A stretch of DNA of 64,000 nucleotides from Aquimarina sp. MAR_2010_214 (GTDB lineage: Bacteria > Bacteroidota > Bacteroidia > Flavobacteriales > Flavobacteriaceae), in assembly GCF_002846555.1 (NCBI RefSeq), contig NZ_PJMS01000001.1:2852001-2916000 (forward strand). The letters are read 5' to 3'. A program made the position numbers and the translations under genes. The notes beneath the pieces were generated by a model that saw nothing but the letters and a program-made list of their open reading frames with translations, was not told the origin of the DNA and did not search any database. Positions 6,815 through 17,163 of the stretch are shown one piece after another (position 1 is the stretch's first letter; each line of letters begins with the position of its first letter).

Positions 6815-6855
6815 CCTAACGACCTCTGGACTTACCATAGGACACATTGTTAGCT
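6815..6855 (-). repeat. AttC-like cassette boundary A
   Basis: Read on the minus strand it runs from GCTAACAATGTG to CGTTAGGT, matching the integron-type core pair (RYYYAAC and GTTRRRY). It follows the stop of the 192-residue lipoprotein gene by a few bases. It is shorter than the other boundaries and its inner stem is weak, so it may be a truncated outer end of the array. Confidence 0.35.
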
Positions 6856-6859
6856 GTTG

Positions 6860-7438
6860 TTATTTTTTAAGGTTCAATATTCTATTATGCCTTAAATTAT
6901 AATTTGATCCACTATTGTTGAATGGACTAAAAAAATAAACTGTCCCAAAATCTACTTTTTTAGAATCAGTTATAATATTGCCATCATTTAATAGTCCAAT
7001 TCTAAATTTATACGATTGAAATTCATTAATTAATAATGCAGGCAATATATATCCTTTCCTATTTTGCTCAAAATATCCATTTTTTATTTTCCCTCTAATA
7101 GTATAAGTCTTTAAGACGCTATTGTTGATTTTAAGTTTAGCTTTAATCTTATTTTTATTCAATACTGATAGAGTTATAAAAAATAAAGGTTCAATTCCAG
7201 ATTTCTTTCTAATTTTATAAACTAACTTACTTTCTTTATTTGTACAAAAAGAACCTAAAAAATAATCTGAATATGAAAGGTATTTATTTTCATCGATTTT
7301 ATATGTACCATCTATTAAATTCAAATTTTCCCTAGTCAATTCAACTTTGTTTTCAATTATTTCATTTTTTTTTAATGTAGCACAAGAATAATTTAGAAGT
7401 ACAATACACAAATAAGTAATAATTTTATAAAATTTCAT
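6860..7438 (-). CDS. Hypothetical lipoprotein (cassette gene)
   Basis: A 192-residue protein with a lipoprotein signal (MKFYKIITYLCIVLLNYSC, Cys19) and a mature part rich in beta-type sequence with many Lys and Asn. I do not recognise the family. Features are YSDYFLGSFCTNKESKLVYKI near residues 55-75 and FGTVYFFSPFNNSGS near the end. It is enclosed by cassette-like boundaries A (after its stop) and B (before its start) and is transcribed in the same direction as the neighbouring cassette genes. Confidence 0.7.
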   Translation of the reverse strand: MKFYKIITYLCIVLLNYSCATLKKNEIIENKVELTRENLNLIDGTYKIDENKYLSYSDYFLGSFCTNKESKLVYKIRKKSGIEPLFFITLSVLNKNKIKAKLKINNSVLKTYTIRGKIKNGYFEQNRKGYILPALLINEFQSYKFRIGLLNDGNIITDSKKVDFGTVYFFSPFNNSGSNYNLRHNRILNLKK

Positions 7439-7487
7439 GAATGACTTTTTAAGAGGATTCTGATTCTTTAGTTTCGTGTTTTAATAA

Positions 7488-7583
7488 CAGCTAACGTGAT
7501 TGTATATGGTTTTTTGCGTGTTTTAAGTAGTGAATTTCGTAAATAAGCTAAAAGCAGCAATTAATTTTATACGGTGTTGGCAG
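7488..7583 (-). repeat. AttC-like cassette boundary B
   Basis: On the minus strand it opens with GCCAACACCGTATAAAAT and closes with CATATACAATCACGTTAGC. The arms pair imperfectly, and the inner arms AATTGCTGCTTTTAG and TTTTTTGCGTGTTTTAAG also pair. It resembles boundary E along most of its plus-strand left arm, including TTGCGTGTTT, which shows that these spacers are one repeat family. Confidence 0.55.
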
Positions 7584-7589
7584 TAGTAT

Positions 7590-8195
7590 TTATTTTCCAT
7601 TTCTCATTTTACTGAAAAAATCAGACATCATTTTTCTACTTTTCTCACTTGTTTTCAAATTTACTATCACTCCATTTTCATCAGTCGTAAAATGCCCTTT
7701 GAAAGCGTCTGGCATTTGGTTATATTGATTATTAACTTGATTTAATGTTTTAACAAAACAAGAATATCCATATTTTTCCACAAGAAAAGGTAAAGCGTGT
7801 TTTCCTCTTAAAAGTTCATATTCTTGATAGTTGTAAGGTGTTGATTTTTGTCTTTTTGCTAAAGTCAAATTAAATTTTTGTAATATTTTTTCAATCTCTT
7901 TTTCCGTTGCAAATTGGGAAATTCCACGTAGAGCATAAAGTTTCATATCTAAATAACGTTCTTTTTTATATGCCAAATTAAAGAAATCATTCAGTTCATG
8001 AAAGTCGAAATCATACAAGAGTTTTAAAACTCTATTTCGCAATTCAATATGTTTGGTTTTTGTGTAGATTCTAATTAAATGAACAATATTACTTTCGTTT
8101 ATTGTTTTTTTATTTAATGAAAATAATGCGTTTCTAAAGTCCGCATTTCTTTCGTTTATCTTTTCATTAGTCAATATTTCGGGAAAGTCTGTCAT
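7590..8195 (-). CDS. Hypothetical protein, helical (cassette gene)
   Basis: A 201-residue soluble protein with no signal peptide. Its middle (about residues 38-110) reads as repeated amphipathic helices (LRNRVLKLLYDFDFHELNDF, LDMKLYALRGISQF), suggestive of HEAT-like repeats. The C-terminus contains FKGHFTTDENGVIVNLKTSE. I do not recognise a named family. It lies between boundaries B and C and would be a single-gene cassette. The start ATG 8195 is 22 bases from boundary C. Confidence 0.7.
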   Translation of the reverse strand: MTDFPEILTNEKINERNADFRNALFSLNKKTINESNIVHLIRIYTKTKHIELRNRVLKLLYDFDFHELNDFFNLAYKKERYLDMKLYALRGISQFATEKEIEKILQKFNLTLAKRQKSTPYNYQEYELLRGKHALPFLVEKYGYSCFVKTLNQVNNQYNQMPDAFKGHFTTDENGVIVNLKTSEKSRKMMSDFFSKMRNGK

Positions 8196-8216
8196 TATTG
8201 GGTTTTACTCGTATTA

Positions 8217-8385
8217 CTGCCAACGCCAAATATATGAATCGGAGCAAGGCAAGAAAGCCTGAACTAATCAATCTATTTGCGCATTTTTATTTCTTGTTTA
8301 ATTTATAAAAATTTAGCGCCACTGCAAAAGGAAATGACCTTTCAATCTGGCATTAAATTGTTCTTATTTTATATATGATGTTAGA
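8217..8385 (-). repeat. AttC-like cassette boundary C
   Basis: On the minus strand it runs from CTAACATCATATATAAAA to ATATATTTGGCGTTGGCAG. The opening TAAC includes the TAA stop codon of the upstream 188-residue gene (8381-8383), so gene end and boundary are fused, as in boundary F. The outer arms pair imperfectly around ATATATG words. The spacer is about 170 bases with no gene inside. Confidence 0.5.
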
Positions 8386-8947
8386 ATTTGTTTTTATACT
8401 CTTTAATTATTGAATCATCCCATACTTGAGCTTCTATATATTTATCATATTTTAAACTTTCCTTAGCTCGAGATTTTTCATCAGATGGCAGTCCATACTC
8501 ATTAATTAGACTACTTATTTCACTCAATAAGAAAACTCGTCCATTACAATCCTTTCTATAGGTTTCAAGTTTGGACTCATCATAAAATTGATACGATACC
8601 ATACTGTCAGGATAGGTAAAACTTAGATGGTTAGCTTTGAAGTCAGTTAATGGTATTTTTACAACACCAGGATTTATATACCAGGACTTTACCCATTCAC
8701 ATTCTCCCAATGTAAAGTAGAAAGGGTCATTTCTATTAGGTTCTCCGCCTCTTAAAATAAACTGTTTCCTAATTCTATTTTCTAACGAGAATCTTAAATC
8801 AAGATAGTTATCAGGTCTTTTACTATTCCATCCTTCCGAGATTTTATTCTGAATACTCTCAGCTTTTTCGTAACCACATTCAGTAATATTTAAGAATGGT
8901 CCATTGTCAAGTTCGTAATAATGAAATAGAAATTCAGGTACATTCAT
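8381..8947 (-). CDS. Hypothetical protein (cassette gene)
   Basis: A 188-residue soluble protein starting MNVPEFLFHYYELDNGPF. Blocks such as LGECEWVKSWYINPG and YIEAQVWDDSIIKEY recur in uncharacterised proteins scattered across many bacteria, but I know no function for them. Its stop codon TAA is part of boundary C. An IS481 element is inserted just upstream of its start, between the gene and boundary D, and may have cut it off from its promoter or supplied a new one. Confidence 0.7.
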   Translation of the reverse strand: MNVPEFLFHYYELDNGPFLNITECGYEKAESIQNKISEGWNSKRPDNYLDLRFSLENRIRKQFILRGGEPNRNDPFYFTLGECEWVKSWYINPGVVKIPLTDFKANHLSFTYPDSMVSYQFYDESKLETYRKDCNGRVFLLSEISSLINEYGLPSDEKSRAKESLKYDKYIEAQVWDDSIIKEYKNKF

Positions 8948-8963
8948 TCAGTTTGTTATTAAT

Positions 8964-10274
8964 GTTCGTTAAGATACATAGTTTACACAAGTTAAAGATT
9001 AGGTGTTTACACTAAGTTAGTTTCTAATCTTGTTGCTTGTTGTTTCTTTCTTAGGTTTCTTTGATCAAAGAAACCTAAAAATACATTTCTATAATAAACT
9101 TTCCAAATACCATTGCCTAACTCTTGTATACCTACATATTTCCCTTTTAATGCGGCAGTTAAATATACCCAATAATAAGACTTCCATCTAATAGCTCCAC
9201 TCTTGGTTACTTTAAGTACTTTAAGGTTGGTGTCGTAATCAAAATTAGATATTTTTTCGGGGAATGGTCTACAGGAAAAGTCGTGTATATCAGCAGGTGT
9301 TTTCATTTCTAAAGCTTCATGTGGTCTGATAGTATTATACTCTTTTACGAAGTGATTTAAGCGCCGTTGTTGTGCTTTTAAATCGTAAGCTGAAGGTTTA
9401 GCACAAGCGGCTTTTAAATCACGATGCATTCGTTCATGTCTTCCATTTTGTTCTGGATGAGCAGGATCAGAAAATACAGGTGTGATTCCTAGTTCAATAA
9501 ACCAATAAGATAATTGTGTATAGCGTTGAATAGCTCTTACAGATCCAAAAGGGCTTCCATTGTCTGTGTGTATTTGTTTAGGGATTCCATATGTTCTAAA
9601 AACCTTTGTAAACTCAGCTTTGGCTGCTTTTAGCGTTTCTTTATAATGACCTTTAGCAGTGAATAGAAATCGACTTTTAGAGTCCGCAATGGTTAGTGGA
9701 TGACAATAGATTTTATTACCCATTAAAAACTTTCCTTTATAATCAGCACTCCATACTTCATTACAGGATTTTGGATCAAAAATGGGGAATACAGGTTTTA
9801 CTCTTCGCATTCGTTTTTGAGGAGATACCAAACCATTTTTTCGAAGAATATTATGCACAGTAACCACAGAAGGGATTTGTTGTTCAGTAAACTCTTTAAA
9901 CAATAATATTCTGATTTTTTTAGCTCCCCAAAGCTTGTGCTTTTCTTTTAATTTGATAATACTTTTAACGATATTTTCAGAGGTTGCATTAGGATGTTTA
10001 CCTGGTACTCTGGATTGTTCTTTTAAGCCTTCATAGCCTTGATTTTCGAATCGCTGAATCAATTTGTAGGCCGTTGGTCTGGAGATTCCAAAGCTTTTAG
10101 ATAATTCTGTGATGGTATATTTTCCTGTTCGCCATTCACAGATAAATTCAATTTTCTGTTCCATAGTTGTTGTGGTTTTCCAAGGCATGATAATTTGATT
10201 TTCCTCTCAAATTATGCCTTAAAAAGTGTAAACTATGTCCCTTTAACTTTGTAAACGATGTGCCTTTAACGTAC
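8964..10274 (-). mobile_element. IS481-family insertion sequence
   Basis: One transposase gene is flanked by imperfect inverted repeats of about 46 bases (8967-9012 and 10226-10271). Both ends share CGTTAA at the outside, GTTTACA and AAGTTAAAG in the middle, and GTTTACAC at the inside. Repeats this long with internal repeated words are typical of the family. The exact ends and target duplication are uncertain: TAAT words occur at both flanks but I cannot prove a duplication. It lies between boundary D and the 188-residue cassette gene. Confidence 0.75.
9007..10188 (-). CDS. IS481-family transposase
   Basis: A 393-residue DDE transposase. The N-terminus has a helix-turn-helix (YTITELSKSFGISRPTAYKL, about residues 23-42) and a second DNA-binding segment ending in VTVHNILRKNGL. 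The integrase core shows VWSADYKGKF (first Asp), IHTDNGSPFG (second Asp) and HPEQNGRHERMHRDL (Glu), then the family tail YNTIRPHEALEMKTPADIH. The full length suggests it is active or recently so. It is carried by the IS between boundary D and a cassette gene. Confidence 0.92.
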   Translation of the reverse strand: MPWKTTTTMEQKIEFICEWRTGKYTITELSKSFGISRPTAYKLIQRFENQGYEGLKEQSRVPGKHPNATSENIVKSIIKLKEKHKLWGAKKIRILLFKEFTEQQIPSVVTVHNILRKNGLVSPQKRMRRVKPVFPIFDPKSCNEVWSADYKGKFLMGNKIYCHPLTIADSKSRFLFTAKGHYKETLKAAKAEFTKVFRTYGIPKQIHTDNGSPFGSVRAIQRYTQLSYWFIELGITPVFSDPAHPEQNGRHERMHRDLKAACAKPSAYDLKAQQRRLNHFVKEYNTIRPHEALEMKTPADIHDFSCRPFPEKISNFDYDTNLKVLKVTKSGAIRWKSYYWVYLTAALKGKYVGIQELGNGIWKVYYRNVFLGFFDQRNLRKKQQATRLETNLV

Positions 10275-10282
10275 CTAATAAA

Positions 10283-10457
10283 GCCTAACGTTAAATATAT
10301 GTGTCGTAGCTGCGCAAAATGTTACCAAGCCATCGACGTTCTCTACACAGATTTTATACCTTATTCATCTTTAAAATCATTGCGCCTTCATAAATATGCA
10401 AGAACCATTCGATTGATCACTCAGCTGCTATGATCGCATATATCGTGTTGTGCTTAG
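10283..10457 (-). repeat. AttC-like cassette boundary D
   Basis: On the minus strand it opens CTAAGCACAACACGATATATG and ends CATATATTTAACGTTAGGC; the final GTTAGGC is an exact match to the integron GTTRRRY core. The inner arms GCGCAATG and CTGCGCAAAATG pair. The IS481 copy lies directly beyond the closing core. Confidence 0.55.
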
Positions 10458-10460
10458 TTT

Positions 10461-10832
10461 TTATTTTGTTTCATACCAGTTTTTATATTCCAGATATTCA
10501 TCAAATTCCTCATCATTCATTTTAAGGAGAATTTTTGAAAAATTCCGATAATCAACAACGTCCTTTGTTTTTAAGAAATCGGTTAATAGAAAATGAATAT
10601 AAGGGTTTTCAATATCGTCCATTTTTAAAGTCGAATATCTTTTTCGCGATTTCAGGTACTGTTTCCAAAATCTTTTATAATCACTATATATTCTGTCCGT
10701 TACTTTTGAAATTATCTCATTTAATAATTCCATCGGAATTTGATTATCCGAAATTCTAAAGTAATACTCCTTAATTTTCGAGTAAAAATCTCGTTTCGGT
10801 TCAATTCTATTTTCAGTTTTCCAGAATAGCAT
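10461..10832 (-). CDS. Hypothetical protein downstream of barstar-like gene
   Basis: A 123-residue, highly charged, helical soluble protein (MLFWKTENRIEPKRDFYSKI at the start, FDEYLEYKNWYETK at the end) with many aromatic residues. I do not recognise it. Its ATG directly follows the TAA of the barstar-like gene with no spacing, so the two are translated together and share one cassette between boundaries D and E. It could be a partner, or a target-related protein, of the barstar-like product, but no nuclease motif is evident. Confidence 0.65.
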   Translation of the reverse strand: MLFWKTENRIEPKRDFYSKIKEYYFRISDNQIPMELLNEIISKVTDRIYSDYKRFWKQYLKSRKRYSTLKMDDIENPYIHFLLTDFLKTKDVVDYRNFSKILLKMNDEEFDEYLEYKNWYETK

Positions 10833-11111
10833 TTATGTCAATTGTAATTCTATATTTTCGTGTTCTTTGATTATTTCAATTATTCGGTCAAAATATTTTA
10901 GTTCAGATTTACTTTTTTCACTTCGATGCCATTTTAAGATATATTTCTCATCAACATTGTGAACTCCAAATCCGCCATATAAAACATCATTAAATGCGTT
11001 GAGATTTCGTCCTATTTTCCAATTCAGTCCAAAGGTCATTTTCGATTCTATCTCTCGATAAAAACCTTTCATATTTGAAAATTTATTTCCGTTTATCTCG
11101 ATTATTCGCAT
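10833..11111 (-). CDS. Barstar-like (barnase inhibitor family) protein
   Basis: A 92-residue protein matching the barstar fold in order: MRIIEINGNKFSNMKGFYRE (first strand and helix), GLNWKIGRNLNAFNDVLYGG (the inhibitory helix and loop, near residues 28-48), and the C-terminal IIEIIKEHENIELQLT strand. Barstar proteins bind and block secreted or toxin RNases, or act in immunity. No barnase-type RNase gene is adjacent, so it looks like an orphan immunity gene within a cassette. The next gene starts immediately after its stop. Confidence 0.75.
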   Translation of the reverse strand: MRIIEINGNKFSNMKGFYREIESKMTFGLNWKIGRNLNAFNDVLYGGFGVHNVDEKYILKWHRSEKSKSELKYFDRIIEIIKEHENIELQLT

Positions 11112-11124
11112 TTTTGTAAATGAA

Positions 11125-11266
11125 TGCTAACGGTTTTGTGTATGATTTCGTTGCGTGTTTAAGCACCTAATTTAGCAAATACAAACCGAATAGAAAATCT
11201 GCAAGGATTTTCCGAGTACACACAGAACAAGCAATGAATTATAGGACACGGTGTTATATGCTGACC
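11125..11266 (-). repeat. AttC-like cassette boundary E
   Basis: On the minus strand it opens GGTCAGCATATAACACCGTG and closes CATACACAAAACCGTTAGCA. Imperfect arms of about 25 bases pair (plus-strand left arm TGTGTATGATTTCGTTGCGT against the complement of the right arm containing CAAGCAATGAATTATAGG). The left arm is clearly related to that of boundary B. It separates the barstar cassette from the hydrolase/sigma cassette. Confidence 0.55.
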
Positions 11267-11277
11267 ATCTTTTTATT

Positions 11278-11859
11278 TTATAAATCGTTTTCTAAATCAG
11301 CAATTAACTTTAATGTATTCCTTTTATTCTTGTCTATTCTCATCTTATTAATAACATATGCAACAGCAAACAGTATTATTGTTGCTAGATGAAAAAACAA
11401 TCTATTTTCATCATTAATTACAAAATTGAAAATAGTCCCTTTTTCATATAAACCAAGTAAGGCAAAATTTATTGAAACTATCATAACAGACATATAAATT
11501 AATAAGTGTTTTGTTTTGAAATCTATTTTTTTATTCAGTTTTTTAATAAAATATTGATTATTAAAATCTGATTCATTTGTAATAGCACTATATTTAGTTC
11601 TGTACAGTAGCACTAGTTTCATAAATGCACCAGTAAATGCCAGAATATATGATATTATATAAAATTTACTTACTGAAAGTTCTGCTATAAAAATTAAACT
11701 AGCCAAAGTAAGAATCACTAACGCAATAATTAAAAAAGTGCGCATAAACTTTGCATTTCTTTCCATTTGATTTAATCGCATAATTAATTCGTTTACGTTG
11801 AGCGAATTTGATTTTTGTTCTTGCCACATTTCTTTCCATTTTAGAATTTGTTCTTCCAT
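11278..11859 (-). CDS. Four-helix membrane protein, putative anti-sigma factor
   Basis: A 193-residue protein: a cytoplasmic N-terminus with a Trp/Lys-rich stretch (EEQILKWKEMWQEQK, residues 2-16), four hydrophobic segments (about 40-62, 66-86, 120-136 and 155-170), and a basic tail. It starts 2 bases after the ECF sigma stop, so coupling is tight. A counterpart of similar length and layout follows the second sigma gene at 24819-25424. A membrane protein directly after an ECF sigma is usually its anti-sigma; that role is inferred, as no known anti-sigma domain is recognised. Confidence 0.7.
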   Translation of the reverse strand: MEEQILKWKEMWQEQKSNSLNVNELIMRLNQMERNAKFMRTFLIIALVILTLASLIFIAELSVSKFYIISYILAFTGAFMKLVLLYRTKYSAITNESDFNNQYFIKKLNKKIDFKTKHLLIYMSVMIVSINFALLGLYEKGTIFNFVINDENRLFFHLATIILFAVAYVINKMRIDKNKRNTLKLIADLENDL

Positions 11860-11861
11860 AA

Positions 11862-12356
11862 TTATTGTATTTTTTTAGACAGTATTTTTTTTATTCTGTT
11901 AATTTTTACGCCAATATTAGAAATATTAATTCCTGTTATATTAGCTATCTCTTTATAGCTATTGTCTTCTAATAGTAAACTAATTATTATTCTGTCAATT
12001 TCTTTTAATGAGGAAATAGCTTCATATAATTTCTTAGCCTTATCTTCTTGAAAAGAGTCGTTTACTTGACTAATTTCGTTTTTAAGATTATCAGTTAATA
12101 GGTTAGTGTGCTTGCTTTTAGATTTGTTAATTTTATTAAGAGACATTAAAGCAGTATTAGTAGTAATTCTATATACCCAAGTATTAATAGAGCTTTCTTC
12201 TCTAAAATTGTCTAAATTCTTCCAAACCTTGATTAAGACTTCTTGAAATAAATCATCTGCATCAGATCTATTTCCCATAAAACCTAAGCACAGACGATAA
12301 ATTTTATCTTTTAAATCGTTATAGGTTTGTTCAAAAAATTGTTCTTTATTATTCAT
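11862..12356 (-). CDS. ECF-type RNA polymerase sigma factor (cassette copy)
   Basis: A 164-residue ECF sigma. Region 2 is about residues 8-75 (CLGFMGNRSDADDLFQEVLI, then WVYRITTNTAL) and region 4 is near residues 105-160 (YKEIANITGINISNIGVKIN). The start ATG 12356 is chosen because the protein then begins at MNNKEQFFEQTY like its paralogue at 25417 (also 164 residues); the longer frame overlaps the hydrolase. The start overlaps the hydrolase stop by 8 bases. It is the middle gene of a hydrolase/sigma/membrane-protein operon inside a cassette-like unit. Confidence 0.85.
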   Translation of the reverse strand: MNNKEQFFEQTYNDLKDKIYRLCLGFMGNRSDADDLFQEVLIKVWKNLDNFREESSINTWVYRITTNTALMSLNKINKSKSKHTNLLTDNLKNEISQVNDSFQEDKAKKLYEAISSLKEIDRIIISLLLEDNSYKEIANITGINISNIGVKINRIKKILSKKIQ

Positions 12357-13224
12357 TTCCAGAAATAAATAGATTAATCTGCTCAAATGTCCAATTTGGT
12401 TCATCCAACATAATAAAATGTTTTGCTTTTTCTGCAATTTTTATTTTACAATTTTTTACCTTAGAATACTGACTTTCAAAAGCGTTTTTTACCATATCTT
12501 GAGAAATTCCATAATCTTTCAATCCATACCAACTTCCAAGGACTAAAACATCTGTTTTAATAGTTGCAATAGTTTGAGTTAAATCTTTTGTCATCATTTC
12601 AAATGTTGCTTGAGCAATCGTTTCTCTGTCTGATTCTAAAGCCCATTTCGTTGCTAATTTTACATTTGTAGTATCAGTTATCATTGAATATAATTTTACC
12701 TCTTGTTGCTTTGCAAATAAACTGTCTGTAGTTTCTAGAATAGTTGATTTCATTTGGTTTGCTTGCGGTAAAATGTTTGTTTCATTAATGTTTGGGTTAT
12801 ATGCAGATGGTAAGAAAGGATATGAATCAACAATTATTAATTTTTGTAATAAATTAGGTTGAGAACTTGCAATTGAAAGTGATAAAAAGCCACTAAAACT
12901 ATGTCCAATCAATATTGGTTTTTCATTTAGTTCATTTTTAATATATGAAATGATTTCTTTTTGAATAATTGGGTAGTATCCTTTTTCGAGTGAAATTGGT
13001 TTTTGACCTGCAAATCCTGCCAAGGTTAAAATATGGCACTCGTAATTTTTTTCTAGTGTATCTGTAGTTTGTTGCCAAACTTTTCCTGAAGATGCTAACC
13101 CAGGAATTAAAATTATTGGTTTTCCTTTTCCTATAATTTCAACATTGAAGGAATATTTTTCAGTTTGAGAATAAATAGTTGTTTGAAGAAAAAGAAAAAC
13201 TAATAGAATTGCTAAATTTTTCAT
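12349..13224 (-). CDS. Exported alpha/beta hydrolase (sigma-operon partner, cassette copy)
   Basis: A 291-residue hydrolase with a Sec signal peptide (MKNLAILLVFLFLQTTIYSQ), so it acts outside the cytoplasm. It has an oxyanion region LIPGLASSG, nucleophile elbow GHSFSG, an acid in the VLVLGSW region, and catalytic His in KAKHFIMLDEPNW near the end. It is clearly homologous to the hydrolase at 25904-26743 (shared HFIM.D.P.W and SDRET/ADRET blocks). It is first gene of an operon whose next gene encodes an ECF sigma, overlapping by 8 bases. A signalling role is likely; the substrate is unknown. Confidence 0.85.
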   Translation of the reverse strand: MKNLAILLVFLFLQTTIYSQTEKYSFNVEIIGKGKPIILIPGLASSGKVWQQTTDTLEKNYECHILTLAGFAGQKPISLEKGYYPIIQKEIISYIKNELNEKPILIGHSFSGFLSLSIASSQPNLLQKLIIVDSYPFLPSAYNPNINETNILPQANQMKSTILETTDSLFAKQQEVKLYSMITDTTNVKLATKWALESDRETIAQATFEMMTKDLTQTIATIKTDVLVLGSWYGLKDYGISQDMVKNAFESQYSKVKNCKIKIAEKAKHFIMLDEPNWTFEQINLFISGNE

Positions 13225-13321
13225 TGTAAATGTTTTTATGATTTACTCTTTAGATTAGCAATAAAGTTTTTATTACACTTTTTTTTGATTTTTATTATTA
13301 GTTTGGTTTTTCAGCTTGCAC

Positions 13322-13351
13322 CTAACAAAGATATATAGTTACCTTTAGTAA
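13322..13351 (+). repeat. 30-bp direct repeat, left copy
   Basis: The sequence beginning CTAACAAAGATATATAGTTA and ending TAGTAA matches 16712-16741 in 29 of 30 positions (T versus C at one site). The two copies flank a segment of about 3.4 kb holding a membrane protein gene and the restriction-modification system. They could be recombination sites or a duplicated target. Confidence 0.75.
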
Positions 13352-13442
13352 GCCGATGGCGCGGATTTGCAATCCGTGCTATTAATACTTTAAAATAAAT
13401 TTAAAACAATCTTATCTATAACTGGATTATTATAATGTACTT

Positions 13443-13478
13443 TAACAAAAAAACAGTCACATTATAAGTGGCTGTTTT
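13443..13478 (-). terminator. Intrinsic terminator after the membrane-protein cassette gene
   Basis: Arms AAAACAGTCAC (13450-13460) and GTGGCTGTTTT (13468-13478) pair with one mismatch. On the minus strand the stem is followed by seven T residues, so it would end transcripts from the gene at 13533-14297 before the hydrolase operon. Confidence 0.65.
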
Positions 13479-13532
13479 GGTATTTCCTTATGTTTCACGG
13501 ATTACAAATCCGCGCTGTCGGGATTACTATTG

Positions 13533-14297
13533 TTAATGGTTATTTTTCTTCTCTGTCAACATTTTAATTTCATTCATTGGAAAGATATCGTTTATCTTTT
13601 TCTTTTGATCGTGAAAGAAAATAAAATTTCTTGTTTTACCAATGTAATAATAACTGCTGTCACTAACTACATTTCTATCAGAAAGTTTAAGTGTTGTGCC
13701 TAAATATTTTTTATTTGTTTTTACGGATTTAAAGTCTTGATAAGCTGAACTAATTGTAAGCCCAAGCAAAATAATAAAAAGTTTTGCAAGATTCGTATAA
13801 ATCATTTTGGGGTGTTCCTTGAATTTAATGAACCATTGTCTACGAGTTTCATAGATTATTGTCAATAATAAAATTAGACAGAGAATTGGGTAGAAATAAT
13901 ATAAATAGGTTGTGAATGGTAGTTTAGAAAGCCAAAACCAAAATGGAATTCCAATAACCCAAATTAATGTTAATATTAATAAATTAATTCCATTTACAGC
14001 GTAAGCTAATATTCGTTTAAGCAGATTTTTTTCTGTTAAAGTATCGTGAAGTCCTTTGGATATATTTTCAAGTTCATTGTTAGGTTGCATTAAAAACATC
14101 AATAAGTTTACAATAAAAATTATTGCAATGAAATACAAAAGGTCATTTAAAAATAGTGTCAGGATTTCAGAGAATTCTAAATAAGATGCGATATTAACAC
14201 CAAATAATGAATAGTAAATTGTCAACTTAGTAGCACCAAGTAGAATTAAAAGTGTCCCCAAGTAAGGAACGTAAAATTTATAATCTTCTTTTGTCAT
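13533..14297 (-). CDS. Multi-pass membrane protein (cassette gene)
   Basis: About 254 residues from ATG 14297 (MTKEDYKFYVPYLGTLLILL). There are five or six hydrophobic segments: the first near residue 10, the next in FLNDLLYFIAIIFIVNLLMF, a pair around IWVIGIPFWFWLSKLPF, and one in LAKLFIILLGLTISSAY. The C-terminus is hydrophilic. The family is not recognised. The upstream-extended frame to 14369 reads through boundary G and is rejected. The stop codon is embedded in boundary F. Confidence 0.7.
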   Translation of the reverse strand: MTKEDYKFYVPYLGTLLILLGATKLTIYYSLFGVNIASYLEFSEILTLFLNDLLYFIAIIFIVNLLMFLMQPNNELENISKGLHDTLTEKNLLKRILAYAVNGINLLILTLIWVIGIPFWFWLSKLPFTTYLYYFYPILCLILLLTIIYETRRQWFIKFKEHPKMIYTNLAKLFIILLGLTISSAYQDFKSVKTNKKYLGTTLKLSDRNVVSDSSYYYIGKTRNFIFFHDQKKKINDIFPMNEIKMLTEKKNNH

Positions 14298-14319
14298 GTG
14301 GATGTTGTTTAAAATATCC

Positions 14320-14387
14320 GCTAACGTCTCTTGTATGTTGTGTTTGCTTCCCGAAGGGAGCATATGCAATATACAAATTGTTAGTAT
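14320..14387 (-). repeat. AttC-like cassette boundary G (short, clean hairpin)
   Basis: This is the clearest of the set. On the minus strand ACTAACAATTTGTATATTGC leads into CATATGCTCCC, a tight loop TTCGGG region, then the complementary arm, closing in ACAAGAGACGTTAGCGG. The whole forms one near-continuous hairpin of about 68 bases with CTAAC and GTTAG at its ends. It sits just upstream of the membrane-protein gene and faces the R-M genes. Confidence 0.6.
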
Positions 14388-14532
14388 TTCATTTTTTAAA
14401 TCAGTTTTTAGATAGTATTTAGGCTTTTTTGAAAGAATTTAGTTTGTTTACTTTTCTGTTCAAAAGTTAGAACTCCTTAGATGTTAAATTTGCCAACAAT
14501 CAACTATCTTTACATTTTACTAGATTAAATAT

Positions 14533-15270
14533 ATGTCAAAAAAAATAATTAGCTTGTTCTCAGGAGCTGGAGGATTTGATATTGGAATGGAAAAAGCGGG
14601 ATTTGAGACAGCTGTTCTTGTTGAAAAGGACTCTTCTTGCTGTGAAACTTTACGATTTAATTTCCCTAACACACCTGTAATTGAAGGTGATATCTGTAAG
14701 ATTTCTACTATGAATATGCTCAAAACTGCTGGTTTAAAACCTTTAGAACCAGCACTGGTTATAGGAGGTCCACCATGTCAATCTTTTAGCTTGGCTGGTA
14801 AACGATTAGGAATGAATGATGAGCGAGGTATGTTAGTTTTGGAATTCGTTAGAGTTGTTCGTGAAGCTCTTCCAACTGGTTTTATTATGGAAAATGTAAA
14901 AGGAATGAAAAACTGGGATGGAGGACGTGCGATTAATGCTATTATTGATGAATTAAAAGATCCTGTAGTTTATAAAGGTAAAGAATACTCATACAATGTT
15001 TCAGTCAAAGTATTGAATGCAGCAGACTATGGAGCACCACAATTTCGTGAAAGAGTAATTCTTGTAGGTAATAGAATTGATAAACAGTTTGAATTCCCAA
15101 AACCTACTCACGGTTTAAAAAATATTAATCTTTTAAATGGAAGTGATATTAAACCTTATTCAACGGTTATGGATGCAATAGGATCTTTACCAGAAGCTGA
15201 TGAGCCTTCTGAAACCGCAAAGAGAATTTCAGAAACTATAAAAGAAAGAATTGTTAATCATGGATATTAA
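14533..15270 (+). CDS. DNA (cytosine-5-)-methyltransferase, N-terminal subunit
   Basis: A 245-residue piece with C5-methylase motifs in order: I (ISLFSGAGGFDIGM, residues 6-19), II (VLVEKDSS), IV with catalytic Cys (IGGPPCQSFSLAGKR, about 77-91), VI (FIMENVKGM), and VIII (APQFRERVILVG, about 173-184). The frame ends just into the target-recognition region. Motifs IX and X are encoded by the next gene, which overlaps by 11 bases. This equals the two-subunit layout known from M.AquI (alpha 248, beta 139 residues), although a single-base frameshift in a normal gene gives the same picture. It modifies the site cut by the adjacent endonuclease. Confidence 0.85.
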   Translation: MSKKIISLFSGAGGFDIGMEKAGFETAVLVEKDSSCCETLRFNFPNTPVIEGDICKISTMNMLKTAGLKPLEPALVIGGPPCQSFSLAGKRLGMNDERGMLVLEFVRVVREALPTGFIMENVKGMKNWDGGRAINAIIDELKDPVVYKGKEYSYNVSVKVLNAADYGAPQFRERVILVGNRIDKQFEFPKPTHGLKNINLLNGSDIKPYSTVMDAIGSLPEADEPSETAKRISETIKERIVNHGY

Positions 15271-15649
15271 GAACCACCAAATGACTGCACACTCTCCAAC
15301 TACCTTGGAGAAAATTAAACTTGTTCCTATTGGTAGTAAGTTAAGTGATATTAAACAAACTTTTGGGTCCACCTATCGAAGATTAAGACCTGACAGCCCA
15401 TCTCCAACAGTCACTAGAAGTGGGTATAGAGATTTTATTCACCCTTTTAGAGACAGAATGTTTACAGTAAGAGAGTTAGCATGTTTACAGACGTTCCCTG
15501 TTACTTGGGAATTCAAAGGAACTAGATTAGATTCGTATAGTAGTAAACGTAAAACCAATATGACTCAATTTGGCCAGGTTGGAAATGCTGTTCCACCTGT
15601 ATTAGCTGAAGCGGTGGGAATTGAAGTTATGAAACAATTTTTTGATTAG
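15260..15649 (+). CDS. DNA (cytosine-5-)-methyltransferase, C-terminal subunit
   Basis: About 129 residues from ATG 15260 (MDIKNHQMTAHSPTTLEKIK). It carries the rest of the target-recognition region, motif IX (YRRLRPDSPSPTVTRSG, about residues 36-52) and motif X (QFGQVGNAVPPVLAEAV, near 105-121). The ATG lies inside the end of the previous gene, preceded by the purine-rich AAAGAAAGAA, a plausible ribosome site. Its length and content match a beta subunit of a split C5 methylase. The alternative is a frameshift at about 15267, where joining the frames would give one methylase of about 374 residues. Confidence 0.8.
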   Translation: MDIKNHQMTAHSPTTLEKIKLVPIGSKLSDIKQTFGSTYRRLRPDSPSPTVTRSGYRDFIHPFRDRMFTVRELACLQTFPVTWEFKGTRLDSYSSKRKTNMTQFGQVGNAVPPVLAEAVGIEVMKQFFD

Positions 15650-15651
15650 TT

Positions 15652-16680
15652 ATGGCAAAAATTCCAAAGGAAATTGAAGAAGAGAGTTATCTTTTGAAAT
15701 CAACATTCTTTTTTAGAAAGCTCAATGATTTAAATTATGTAGGAATAGATGGTAGAGTTAAAAAAGCGGCTGCAAAACTAAAAGATGACTTAAATTGGGA
15801 GGGGCGTTCAAATTTAGGAATAAGTGAGGAAGCTTGGAGTATATTAAAATCCAATGAAATTAATCCTTGTCGAATATTTGTCCATCCCACGTTTCTTAGA
15901 ACATATCCAAGTTTATTAAAATATTATCGTTGTCTAGCAATGATACCTCAAAAAGGTCTGATGAAACTTGTTGGAATTGGAAGTTTAAAGGATATAGAAG
16001 AAAAAAGTAAGGATATTCCTGAAAGTAAAATTTCTTCAACTGTAAAAACTCTTAATGAATTCATCTCATCTGTATTGACAATAAATGGATGGTATAAAGA
16101 AGAATGTCTTAAGGCAATGGTTTATAGTACAGCTGGAACTACAATAGATGGTTCTTGGAGAAATAAGATTGGAGAAGAAGGCGAAAGAGTTGTAAAAGAG
16201 ATTTTAGTTAAGGCTCTATTGAAAAACAATGAAGTATCTTACTTCATTATGAAAAATGATGATAAAATTGAGTTTAATGAATTCGAACAGTTAGATAAAA
16301 TAGACGAACTTCGGTCAATTTTTCTTACTAACAGTTATTCAATTGTTTTTAGATCTGAGCCAGATGGAACAATTTTATCCCCTTCCGGAGAAGTAACTGG
16401 TGGAATTGAAGTTAAGGCAGGTATTGATCCAGCCGCAGCTTTAGAAAGACTTGGTGCAATGTTTAAATCATTCGATAATATTAAGCAAACCTATCCTAAA
16501 GCCCAAACAGTTTTGGTAGCTTCTTGCCTTACTAATGAAGTAGAAGCAAGAATTAGAGAATCTCAAGCTGTTAATTTTACTTTTATGCTTACTGATATTA
16601 CGATGAATAAACGTTCTGTTGAAGCTAGATTCGTAAATAAAATTCGAGAAATGTGTGGTCTAATACATAAAAGACTTTAA
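15652..16680 (+). CDS. Type II restriction endonuclease
   Basis: A 342-residue protein starting 2 bases after the methylase gene. A PD-(D/E)xK core is visible near residues 235-256: SEPDGT, then GGIEVKAGID, giving Asp...Glu-x-Lys. The position right behind a C5 methylase, and the absence of helicase motifs, mark it as the cognate nuclease of a simple type II system. I cannot name its recognition family from sequence alone. The gene group is plus strand, opposite to the surrounding cassette genes. Confidence 0.8.
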   Translation: MAKIPKEIEEESYLLKSTFFFRKLNDLNYVGIDGRVKKAAAKLKDDLNWEGRSNLGISEEAWSILKSNEINPCRIFVHPTFLRTYPSLLKYYRCLAMIPQKGLMKLVGIGSLKDIEEKSKDIPESKISSTVKTLNEFISSVLTINGWYKEECLKAMVYSTAGTTIDGSWRNKIGEEGERVVKEILVKALLKNNEVSYFIMKNDDKIEFNEFEQLDKIDELRSIFLTNSYSIVFRSEPDGTILSPSGEVTGGIEVKAGIDPAAALERLGAMFKSFDNIKQTYPKAQTVLVASCLTNEVEARIRESQAVNFTFMLTDITMNKRSVEARFVNKIREMCGLIHKRL

Positions 16681-16710
16681 TCAAGGTCAATTTACTTTTC
16701 TAGAATGAAT

Positions 16711-16741
16711 GCTAACAAAGATATATAGTTACCTCTAGTAA
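16711..16741 (-). repeat. AttC-like core H / 30-bp direct repeat, right copy
   Basis: Positions 16712-16741 repeat the sequence at 13322-13351 with one difference. On the minus strand the end reads ATATATCTTTGTTAGC, like the closing core of boundary F. No matching opening half is evident to its right, so it may be the array's outer edge. Confidence 0.6.
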
Positions 16742-16788
16742 TTATATACCCGTTTGTACTTGTTTATCAATTATTTGTATACGTTTGT

Positions 16789-17163
16789 TTATACTATAAA
16801 TTCTTGTCTATGCTTTCTGATACCGCTATCGGTTAATCCAATCTCATAGGCTTCGGCATATACCTCATCACGAGCTTCTAATTCGTTCCAGGCATCATTT
16901 AATAAACTCATTTCGATTCTATCGAGATTAAAGACATCATTATACTTTGTGGTTTGATTTAATTGTTTCTTTTGATTTGGTTCTTGTAGCAATGCGTTAA
17001 TAATCTTTTTTTTGATGCCTTTAATGATATGTTGATCTTCTATGTGATGTTCATTGAGATTATATTTCACTTCGAGATGCTCTAAGATTCCTACTATTAT
17101 TTTGTCTTGTTCGATATTCTTATACTCAGAAATTTCTCTGATTTTACGATCTATTTTTTTCAT
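16789..17163 (-). CDS. Hypothetical protein
   Basis: A 124-residue, charged, largely helical soluble protein (MKKIDRKIREISEYKNIEQD at the start, LTDSGIRKHRQEFIV at the end) with no signal peptide. I recognise no family. It lies just outside the 30-bp repeat that bounds the R-M segment, and beside decayed coding remnants, so it may itself be a remnant of an older mobile region. Codon use looks normal for the window. Confidence 0.6.
   Translation of the reverse strand: MKKIDRKIREISEYKNIEQDKIIVGILEHLEVKYNLNEHHIEDQHIIKGIKKKIINALLQEPNQKKQLNQTTKYNDVFNLDRIEMSLLNDAWNELEARDEVYAEAYEIGLTDSGIRKHRQEFIV

Follow-up and report, generated by a model that had tools for sequence, protein, structure and literature searches.

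The subject of this analysis is a 64,000-nucleotide stretch of the Aquimarina sp. MAR_2010_214 genome (hereafter the window) and, within it, a series of genes separated by palindromic spacers, which an earlier inspection of the sequence (the original prediction) had read as an integron-like gene-cassette array. All eight spacers that it had described, as read on the minus strand, are present where it had placed them. Along that strand, from 16744 to 6818, an attI-like site (H) is followed by the attC-like sites G, E, D, C, B and A; a further attI-like site (F) comes behind cassette 2. The features are given below; the barcode is the 7-nt sequence at either end of a cassette, R1 is the covariance model described in the next section, ORF stands for open reading frame and IS for insertion sequence.

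16714-16744, minus strand: attI-like site H, an imperfect palindrome (GGTAACTATATATCTTTGTT); head of the array, without an integrase in cis
14383-16713, minus strand: cassette 1, with a C5 cytosine methylase (14533-15270 and 15251-15649) and an XcyI-type endonuclease (15652-16680), all on the plus strand; barcode match only 5/7
14323-14382, minus strand: attC-like site G, 60 bp
13541-14322, minus strand: cassette 2, membrane-protein-like ORF 13533-14297; weak barcode match, 4/7
13324-13353, minus strand: attI-like site F, a direct repeat of H, with an unrelated interspersed hairpin (13349-13523) alongside
11256-13323, minus strand: cassette 3, alpha/beta hydrolase 12349-13224, sigma-70-like factor 11862-12437 and ORF 11278-11859; barcode unmatched
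11129-11255, minus strand: attC-like site E; R1 96.1 bits, E 2.5e-20 (training row)
10450-11128, minus strand: cassette 4, barstar-like ORF 10833-11111 and ORF 10461-10832; barcode unmatched
10287-10449, minus strand: attC-like site D; R1 33.2 bits, E 1.3e-5 (not a training row)
8963-10279, minus strand: IS with an rve / IS481-like transposase (9007-10188), 7 nt past the core of attC-like site D
8383-8962, minus strand: remainder of cassette 5, ORF 8381-8947, with a copy at 92% identity in genome G006; cassette start missing
8222-8382, minus strand: attC-like site C; R1 34.6 bits, E 6.2e-6 (not a training row)
7579-8221, minus strand: cassette 6 (B), ORF 7590-8195; barcode GGCAGTA 7/7, AT/AC edge
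7493-7578, minus strand: attC-like site B; R1 59.9 bits, E 7.2e-12 (training row)
6852-7492, minus strand: cassette 7 (A), ORF 6860-7438; barcode AGCTGTT 7/7, AT/AC edge
6818-6851, minus strand: attC-like site A, 34 bp, terminal; no match to R1

Hairpin sites and their structure

The eight spacers had been ascribed to one design; of these, A-E and G are attC-like, and F and H carry attI-like sites. F and H have a 30-bp stretch in common (96.7%), which resembles the attI-like site behind integrase genes described below; a search of the genome for this window attI sequence as a single exact pattern gave F and H and no other place. The barcode is the sole support for site A as attC-like; site G has 19 further matches, at 76-97% identity, in 12 array loci of its own genome and same-genus genomes. 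Parts of the window found matches in 32/32 same-genus relatives searched (every query part being counted, the IS included), and further copies of spacers C, D, E and G stand in dense arrays. Profiles of five spacer types, applied to the window and 19 loci, gave 178 sites, those of any one locus pointing the same way; examples are 20 sites in 14 kb (L044) and 31 across three adjoining loci (L047-L049). The sites are mostly covarying hairpins of 40-220 bp. As a separate observation, the hairpin at 13349-13523 (CGGATTTGCAATCCGTG ... CACGGATTACAAATCCG) inside spacer F is an interspersed repeat, with copies at up to 98% identity in genome G029 and less similar ones in G001, G002 and other genomes.

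The covariance model R1 was built from 54 attC rows, namely 52 of 69 non-redundant sites together with window sites B and E. It matched B, C, D and E on the minus strand at E ≤ 1.3e-5, B and E being training rows and C and D not, and found at least 31 places in the same genome at E ≤ 0.01, a minimum for this one length class given that 150 of 3926 candidates were scored; window sites A and G gave no match to it. As one structural family the spacers thus stand for B-E, which covary under a single model, and not for A and G, which it leaves unmatched, or for the attI-like F and H. The R''-L''-L'-R' arrangement of integron sites, two paired boxes with an unpaired spacer, was found, with 93.3% of cells paired in the 54 rows. 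Both-side changes numbered 159 against 43.3 in shuffled alignments, and the covariation score was 0.452 against 0.108 when shuffled and at most 0.083 for slid versions of the structure, over which the tested structure is favoured, being derived from one of the 54 rows.

At classical attC sites, extra-helical bases together with the unpaired central spacer determine which strand is chosen, as set out in the part of PMC2727003 available to us; here the strand would be marked by A.C mismatches rather than by clear extra-helical bases. Two such mismatches are fixed in the top strand (37/54 and 48/54 rows), and their bottom-strand counterparts are G.T wobbles. Folding favoured the bottom strand by >0.5 kcal/mol at 154 of 192 sites and the top strand at 20; when the sites carried their own barcodes, the figures were 173 and 10. 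Because the fixed A.C mismatches become wobbles in this way, the hairpin probably acts as folded single-stranded DNA of which the bottom strand is used. The sites differ from classical attC, as had been supposed, in that RYYYAAC is present in 10, GTTRRRY in 13 and both in 1 of 228, and the GTTRRRY closures that had been picked out in A, D and F are incidental, since the bases after GTT are the variable barcode of the next cassette. In classical attC the sole conserved sequence is AAC, according to a section of PMC4792948.

Matched cassette ends and breakpoints at the GTT core

In these arrays, the two ends of a unit mirror each other although they lie ~650 bp apart (median): the 7 bases that follow its upstream GTT recur, as their reverse complement, just ahead of the AAC of its own attC. 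The barcode matched at 6/7 positions or better in 78 of 140 neighbour pairs, 43 of them perfectly, whereas 2000 shuffles averaged 3.1 and reached at most 12, and in a control in which the two flanks of one site were paired, 4/151 matched. With two loci of genome G021 left out, the count was 77/126 against a shuffle maximum of 11. Immediately outside the barcode, the start reads AT in 68 and the end AC in 54 of the 78 matched pairs, and among the 228 sites 93% have A as the eighth base after GTT and 79% have C as the eighth base before AAC. Matched ends of this kind are, we infer, what a unit circularised at its attC would carry.

We also compared 60 homologies between array loci (at least 300 bp, at least 80% identity), many of which are IS or G021 repeats and uninformative. 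Homology ended within 12 bp of a core in 42/120 cases (39 of them at 0 to +2) and started within 12 bp of one in 19/120, the value for random positions being 1.3%. G001, G002, G029 and G026 all retain the flank of site H that contains ORF 16789-17163. Homology extends as far as the GTT of site H in G002 and G029 and ten bases past it in G001; the bases after the GTT are AGCATTC in the window, AGCATTG in G001, GTAAGCA in G002 and ATAGTCA in G029, and the sequences differ thereafter. Four genomes hence carry different sequences at a site H that lacks the candidate integrase described below, and exchange there has therefore taken place on the scale of species. The unit-wise differences with breakpoints at the core that had been anticipated were thus seen, in the homology ends and at this one orthologous site, between species and not strains. 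Matched unit ends, core breakpoints and covarying hairpins support the original prediction of a gene-cassette array.

These data also bear on the explanation that the hairpins are mere transcription terminators, RNA elements or repetitive extragenic palindrome (REP)-like repeats between genes. The hairpins do lie behind genes and are foldable, and the finding of no Rfam match at gathering score in the window, L124, L127 and L044 neither helps nor hurts this explanation; yet from terminators one would expect neither 7-nt complementarity of ends ~650 bp apart, nor homology that breaks off at GTT, nor an integrase whose junction is this same GTT, and we regard it as extremely unlikely.

Cassette ORFs of at least 90 residues numbered 115, and 90 of these, when scanned, matched 46 Pfam families and 8 PADLOC families (one member each); among the 25 Pfam families listed of the 46, 24 were matched by one member. 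The longest ORF lay in the array direction in 118/127 start-end pairs, a few of which are duplicates. Within the window, the array includes a restriction-modification pair (14533-16680), and these genes of cassette 1 point against the array, the opposite of those 118/127 cassettes checked elsewhere. At L045 and L046 (G021:C188:100001-136000), a gene-less element of ~190 bp directly follows the GTT in almost all attC sites read. With a barcode of its own (CGAGTCC) and a hairpin whose core is AAT...ATT, it is a mini-cassette, which seems to have spread through the array. The IS481-like element that interrupts cassette 5 lies, in the window (8963-10279) and at L010, L011, L040 and L043, ~7-12 nt past the GTT core of an attC and shares its orientation; among eight copies with a visible left end these five are so placed, and L013, L014 and L036 are not. 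The element is possibly an attC-targeting IS.

The candidate integrase and its attI-like site

A tblastn search of the window with 57 recombinases returned three short matches, none below E 0.01, and neither a tyrosine recombinase nor a remnant of one was found in it; that the window holds no integrase had already been noted, together with the proposal that one acts in trans. This proposal gained support from a 375-aa tyrosine recombinase, for which we use the name CI (cassette integrase), that is encoded at two other places in the genome, 4.097 and 4.913 Mb, in copies 98% identical, and that has an attI-like site of its own and, in relatives, arrays. The integrase of the window array is thus likely, from these sequence comparisons, to be encoded elsewhere in its own genome. 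CI found a match at E ≤ 1e-100 in 36 of 52 same-genus genomes (its own included); within the order, 93 of 346 genomes had one at E ≤ 1e-50.

At 29 of 30 same-genus CI loci, read by eye (exception L063), a palindrome ending in GTT stands behind the CI stop codon, and the sequences diverge afterwards. A primary attI next to an integrase gene is therefore found at CI loci and not within the window, and the two CI copies of the window's genome share one attI-like type, unlike F and H. Among 29 loci read in other genera, many have an attI-like site behind CI and some lack it (e.g. L116); the same layout was seen on a Persicobacter plasmid and in Winogradskyella ursingii and Seonamhaeicola aphaedonensis. 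A first cassette with matched ends followed the attI GTT in 25 of 52 loci with a flank of at least 500 bp (control 3/1021). In other genera, chains of matched units found de novo downstream of CI exceeded the maximum of 200 shuffles in 10/20 stretches, and 36 kb of control window held 0 such chains.

The recombinase had been expected to carry an IntI-like extra domain, which is absent from CI by linker length, alignment and models. Residues 193-247 of VchIntIA have no counterpart in CI; the linker from KxxKxR to HxLRH spans 58-63 aa in 29 of 30 CIs versus 99-101 in IntI, the reading of 101 in the 30th (L139) being a pattern artefact; and with the IntI model TIGR02249 (cut-off 265 bits) eight CIs scored 187-206 bits, below it, and four true IntIs 394-508. 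In a 60-row tree, the IntI clade (100/100) excludes CI, which forms two groups of 27 rows (81/89) and 3 rows (93/90), the tree not settling the deep order. The best NCBIfam match of CI is NF040815 (recomb_XerA_Arch), by its name built around archaeal XerA, whose 220-bit cut-off was passed by four of the eight CIs scanned, the other four falling below; its product name, 'site-specific tyrosine recombinase/integron integrase', is an annotation label and no evidence of cassette movement. By these sequence comparisons CI is Xer-like and without the IntI additional domain.

Two further observations concern tyrosine recombinases. In the window's genome, clusters of mutually similar tyrosine recombinases of 298-328 aa, spaced several kb apart, lie at G000:C1:1867944-1887618, 3134159-3141652, 5142540-5172192 and 5770879-5786789. 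In addition, short CIs without the N-terminal extension stand divergent from hairpin arrays in G430:C33, G438:C44 and G445:C4 (L327-L329), a layout that is a second architecture, closer to classical integrons; true IntI also occurs elsewhere in G430 and G445.

In a sample of 296 genomes of the phylum, with a CI cut-off of E ≤ 1e-90 and statistics uncorrected for phylogeny, the hairpin model was found in 101, CI in 85 and true IntI in 84. Hairpin and CI occurred together in 59, hairpin only in 42, CI only in 26 and neither in 169 (odds ratio 9.1, p 1.6e-15), and the corresponding figures for hairpin and IntI were 28, 73, 56 and 139 (odds ratio 0.95, p 0.89). These numbers speak to the explanation that the window belongs to a classical integron, its attC cluster being served by a true IntI encoded elsewhere, as in clusters of attC sites lacking integron integrases (CALIN). 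The overall layout is integron-like, true IntI does occur in 84 of the 296 genomes and in 28 of the 101 hairpin-positive ones, and integrons are reported from Bacteroidetes/Chlorobi and Bacteroidota in the accessible parts of PMC2426708 and PMC8618304, which counts in its favour. However, IntI over the cut-off was found in 0/52 same-genus genomes and one of the 84 positives belongs to the class of the window's organism, whose family and order have none, in a search that finds IntI where it is present, as these 84 positives attest; the hairpins do not track IntI; and the classical cores are rare. A true IntI encoded elsewhere is very unlikely to be the explanation.

In our reading, with a probability of about 0.87, the window carries a portion, without integrase, of a cassette system that resembles integrons, occurs widely in Bacteroidota and has CI as its putative recombinase. 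In the sequences themselves this reading draws on the unit structure, the matched ends, the GTT breakpoints, the order integrase-attI-cassette, the covarying hairpins and the co-occurrence of hairpin and enzyme. A cassette would consist of GTT-(7-nt barcode)-AT, the gene or genes, and AC-(reverse-complement barcode)-AAC-hairpin-GTT, and cassettes would stand head to tail behind an attI-like palindrome ending in GTT. At the GTT/AAC core, CI would connect the attC of a circular cassette with attI or with the attC of another cassette; it may also act in trans on the window array, whose attI type differs from that behind the genome's own two CI genes.

Several results weigh against this reading. 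Neither recombination nor excision nor a circle was observed. Of the neighbour pairs, 62/140 fall below a barcode match of 6/7; in the window, the barcodes are perfect only in cassettes A and B, cassettes 1 and 2 match at 5/7 and 4/7, 3 and 4 are unmatched and 5 is without its start. The orthologous locus in G026 lacks site H, and a scripted barcode check found no matched cassette ends at the site H locus in five genomes, so that the units there are evident from the junction only. The training rows of R1 match by construction, because the sites were chosen by barcode and shape. Downstream of CI, 10/20 stretches have chains not above the shuffle maximum, and 27/52 loci have no verified first cassette within their short flank. 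As for distribution, 16/52 same-genus genomes have no CI match at E ≤ 1e-100, 42 of the 101 hairpin-positive genomes are without CI at E ≤ 1e-90 (32 without both CI and IntI), 26 of the 85 CI genomes have no match to the hairpin model, and shared ancestry is left uncorrected in these statistics.

The system might also be real and the window array a fossil of it, its attI type having lost its integrase, an IS having cut one cassette and its barcodes having mostly decayed, so that its cassettes would no longer be mobile. A CI remnant was not found in the window, the attI sequence is confined, as an exact pattern, to F and H, and the barcodes of cassettes 1-4 are weak or absent, all of which would suit a fossil; on the other hand, four genomes differ at the CI-less site H, which points to exchange on the species scale, and two CI genes remain elsewhere in the genome. 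A fossil array is possible, if doubtful.

Relation to known cassette systems

Gene modules exchanged by Xer recombinases at dif sites are described in the available portions of PMC6449649 and PMC13141974. The Xer/dif modules of Acinetobacter resemble the present system in that Xer-like recombinases move single genes as modules, and the window could accordingly be thought to hold such modules, moved by chromosomal XerC/XerD at double-stranded sites as in Acinetobacter plasmids; the Xer-like sequence of CI fits this. Modules of that type are bounded by short dif-like sites, alternating in orientation, and served by chromosomal XerC/D; to our knowledge they have no dedicated integrase and no long hairpin sites. 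In the arrays described here, long covarying hairpins point one way and a dedicated recombinase has an attI beside it, which places these arrays outside that definition; we consider Xer/dif-type modules a highly unlikely explanation.

The cassette system with CI as its putative recombinase shares much with sedentary chromosomal integrons of the Vibrio type, including head-to-tail cassettes of gene plus hairpin, genes mostly in one direction and many of them unknown, an integrase gene beside a primary site, insertion at a GTT/AAC core and an R/L-box hairpin with an unpaired spacer. In archaeal integrons, attI lies directly downstream of the integrase gene, as here (a passage in PMC9668308). The present system differs from integrons of the Vibrio type in that CI has no IntI additional domain and lies outside the IntI clade, and in that its core is GTT plus a 7-nt barcode with an AT/AC edge and not RYYYAAC/GTTRRRY. 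Like CALIN, the window has attC-like sites and no integrase in cis, but it retains attI-like sites, its attC type differs and the recombinase encoded at other places in its genome is of a non-IntI kind.

According to the accessible part of PMC9668308, recombination in integrons requires the IntI domain. XerCD lacks an IntI-like additional domain and, without an I2-like domain, host Xer recombinases act on a folded site of phage CTX-phi, as stated in excerpts of PMC4792948; there, one phage uses a host enzyme and no cassette array is involved. The part of PMC8138268 available to us describes an 'integron-like' subgroup of tyrosine recombinases in which the insertion typical of integron integrases is incompletely conserved. 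Relatives without the full insertion may already sit in that subgroup, which is likened to CI by description only, and Bacteroidota cassette arrays are not among what this part describes. No earlier description of such a Bacteroidota system was found in the literature searched, the coverage of which was partial.

Judged from sequence, the system is integron-like in its working, yet departs from integrons in the IntI domain, the IntI model, the IntI clade and the attC core. On balance we lean slightly towards a second, separate integron system of Bacteroidota. Its enzyme would be Xer/XerA-like and lack the I2 domain, its sites would be folded single-stranded hairpins with A.C mismatches as the strand mark, a 7-nt barcode would carry cassette identity, and the role of the IntI domain might fall to an N-terminal domain similar to the DNA-binding domains of UvsW/XPB/HARP. 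Integrons would then have had more than one origin, or a cassette-moving ancestor lacking the domain would have given rise to both IntI and CI.

Integrons spread antibiotic-resistance genes, and integron-search tools that use an attC model would not recognise CI as an integrase. If our reading is true, a large pool of Bacteroidota gene cassettes has so far gone largely unrecognised. With an enzyme that handles hairpin sites without the IntI domain, ideas on how integrons arose could be put to a direct test, and the cassettes would provide a fresh sample of unknown genes.

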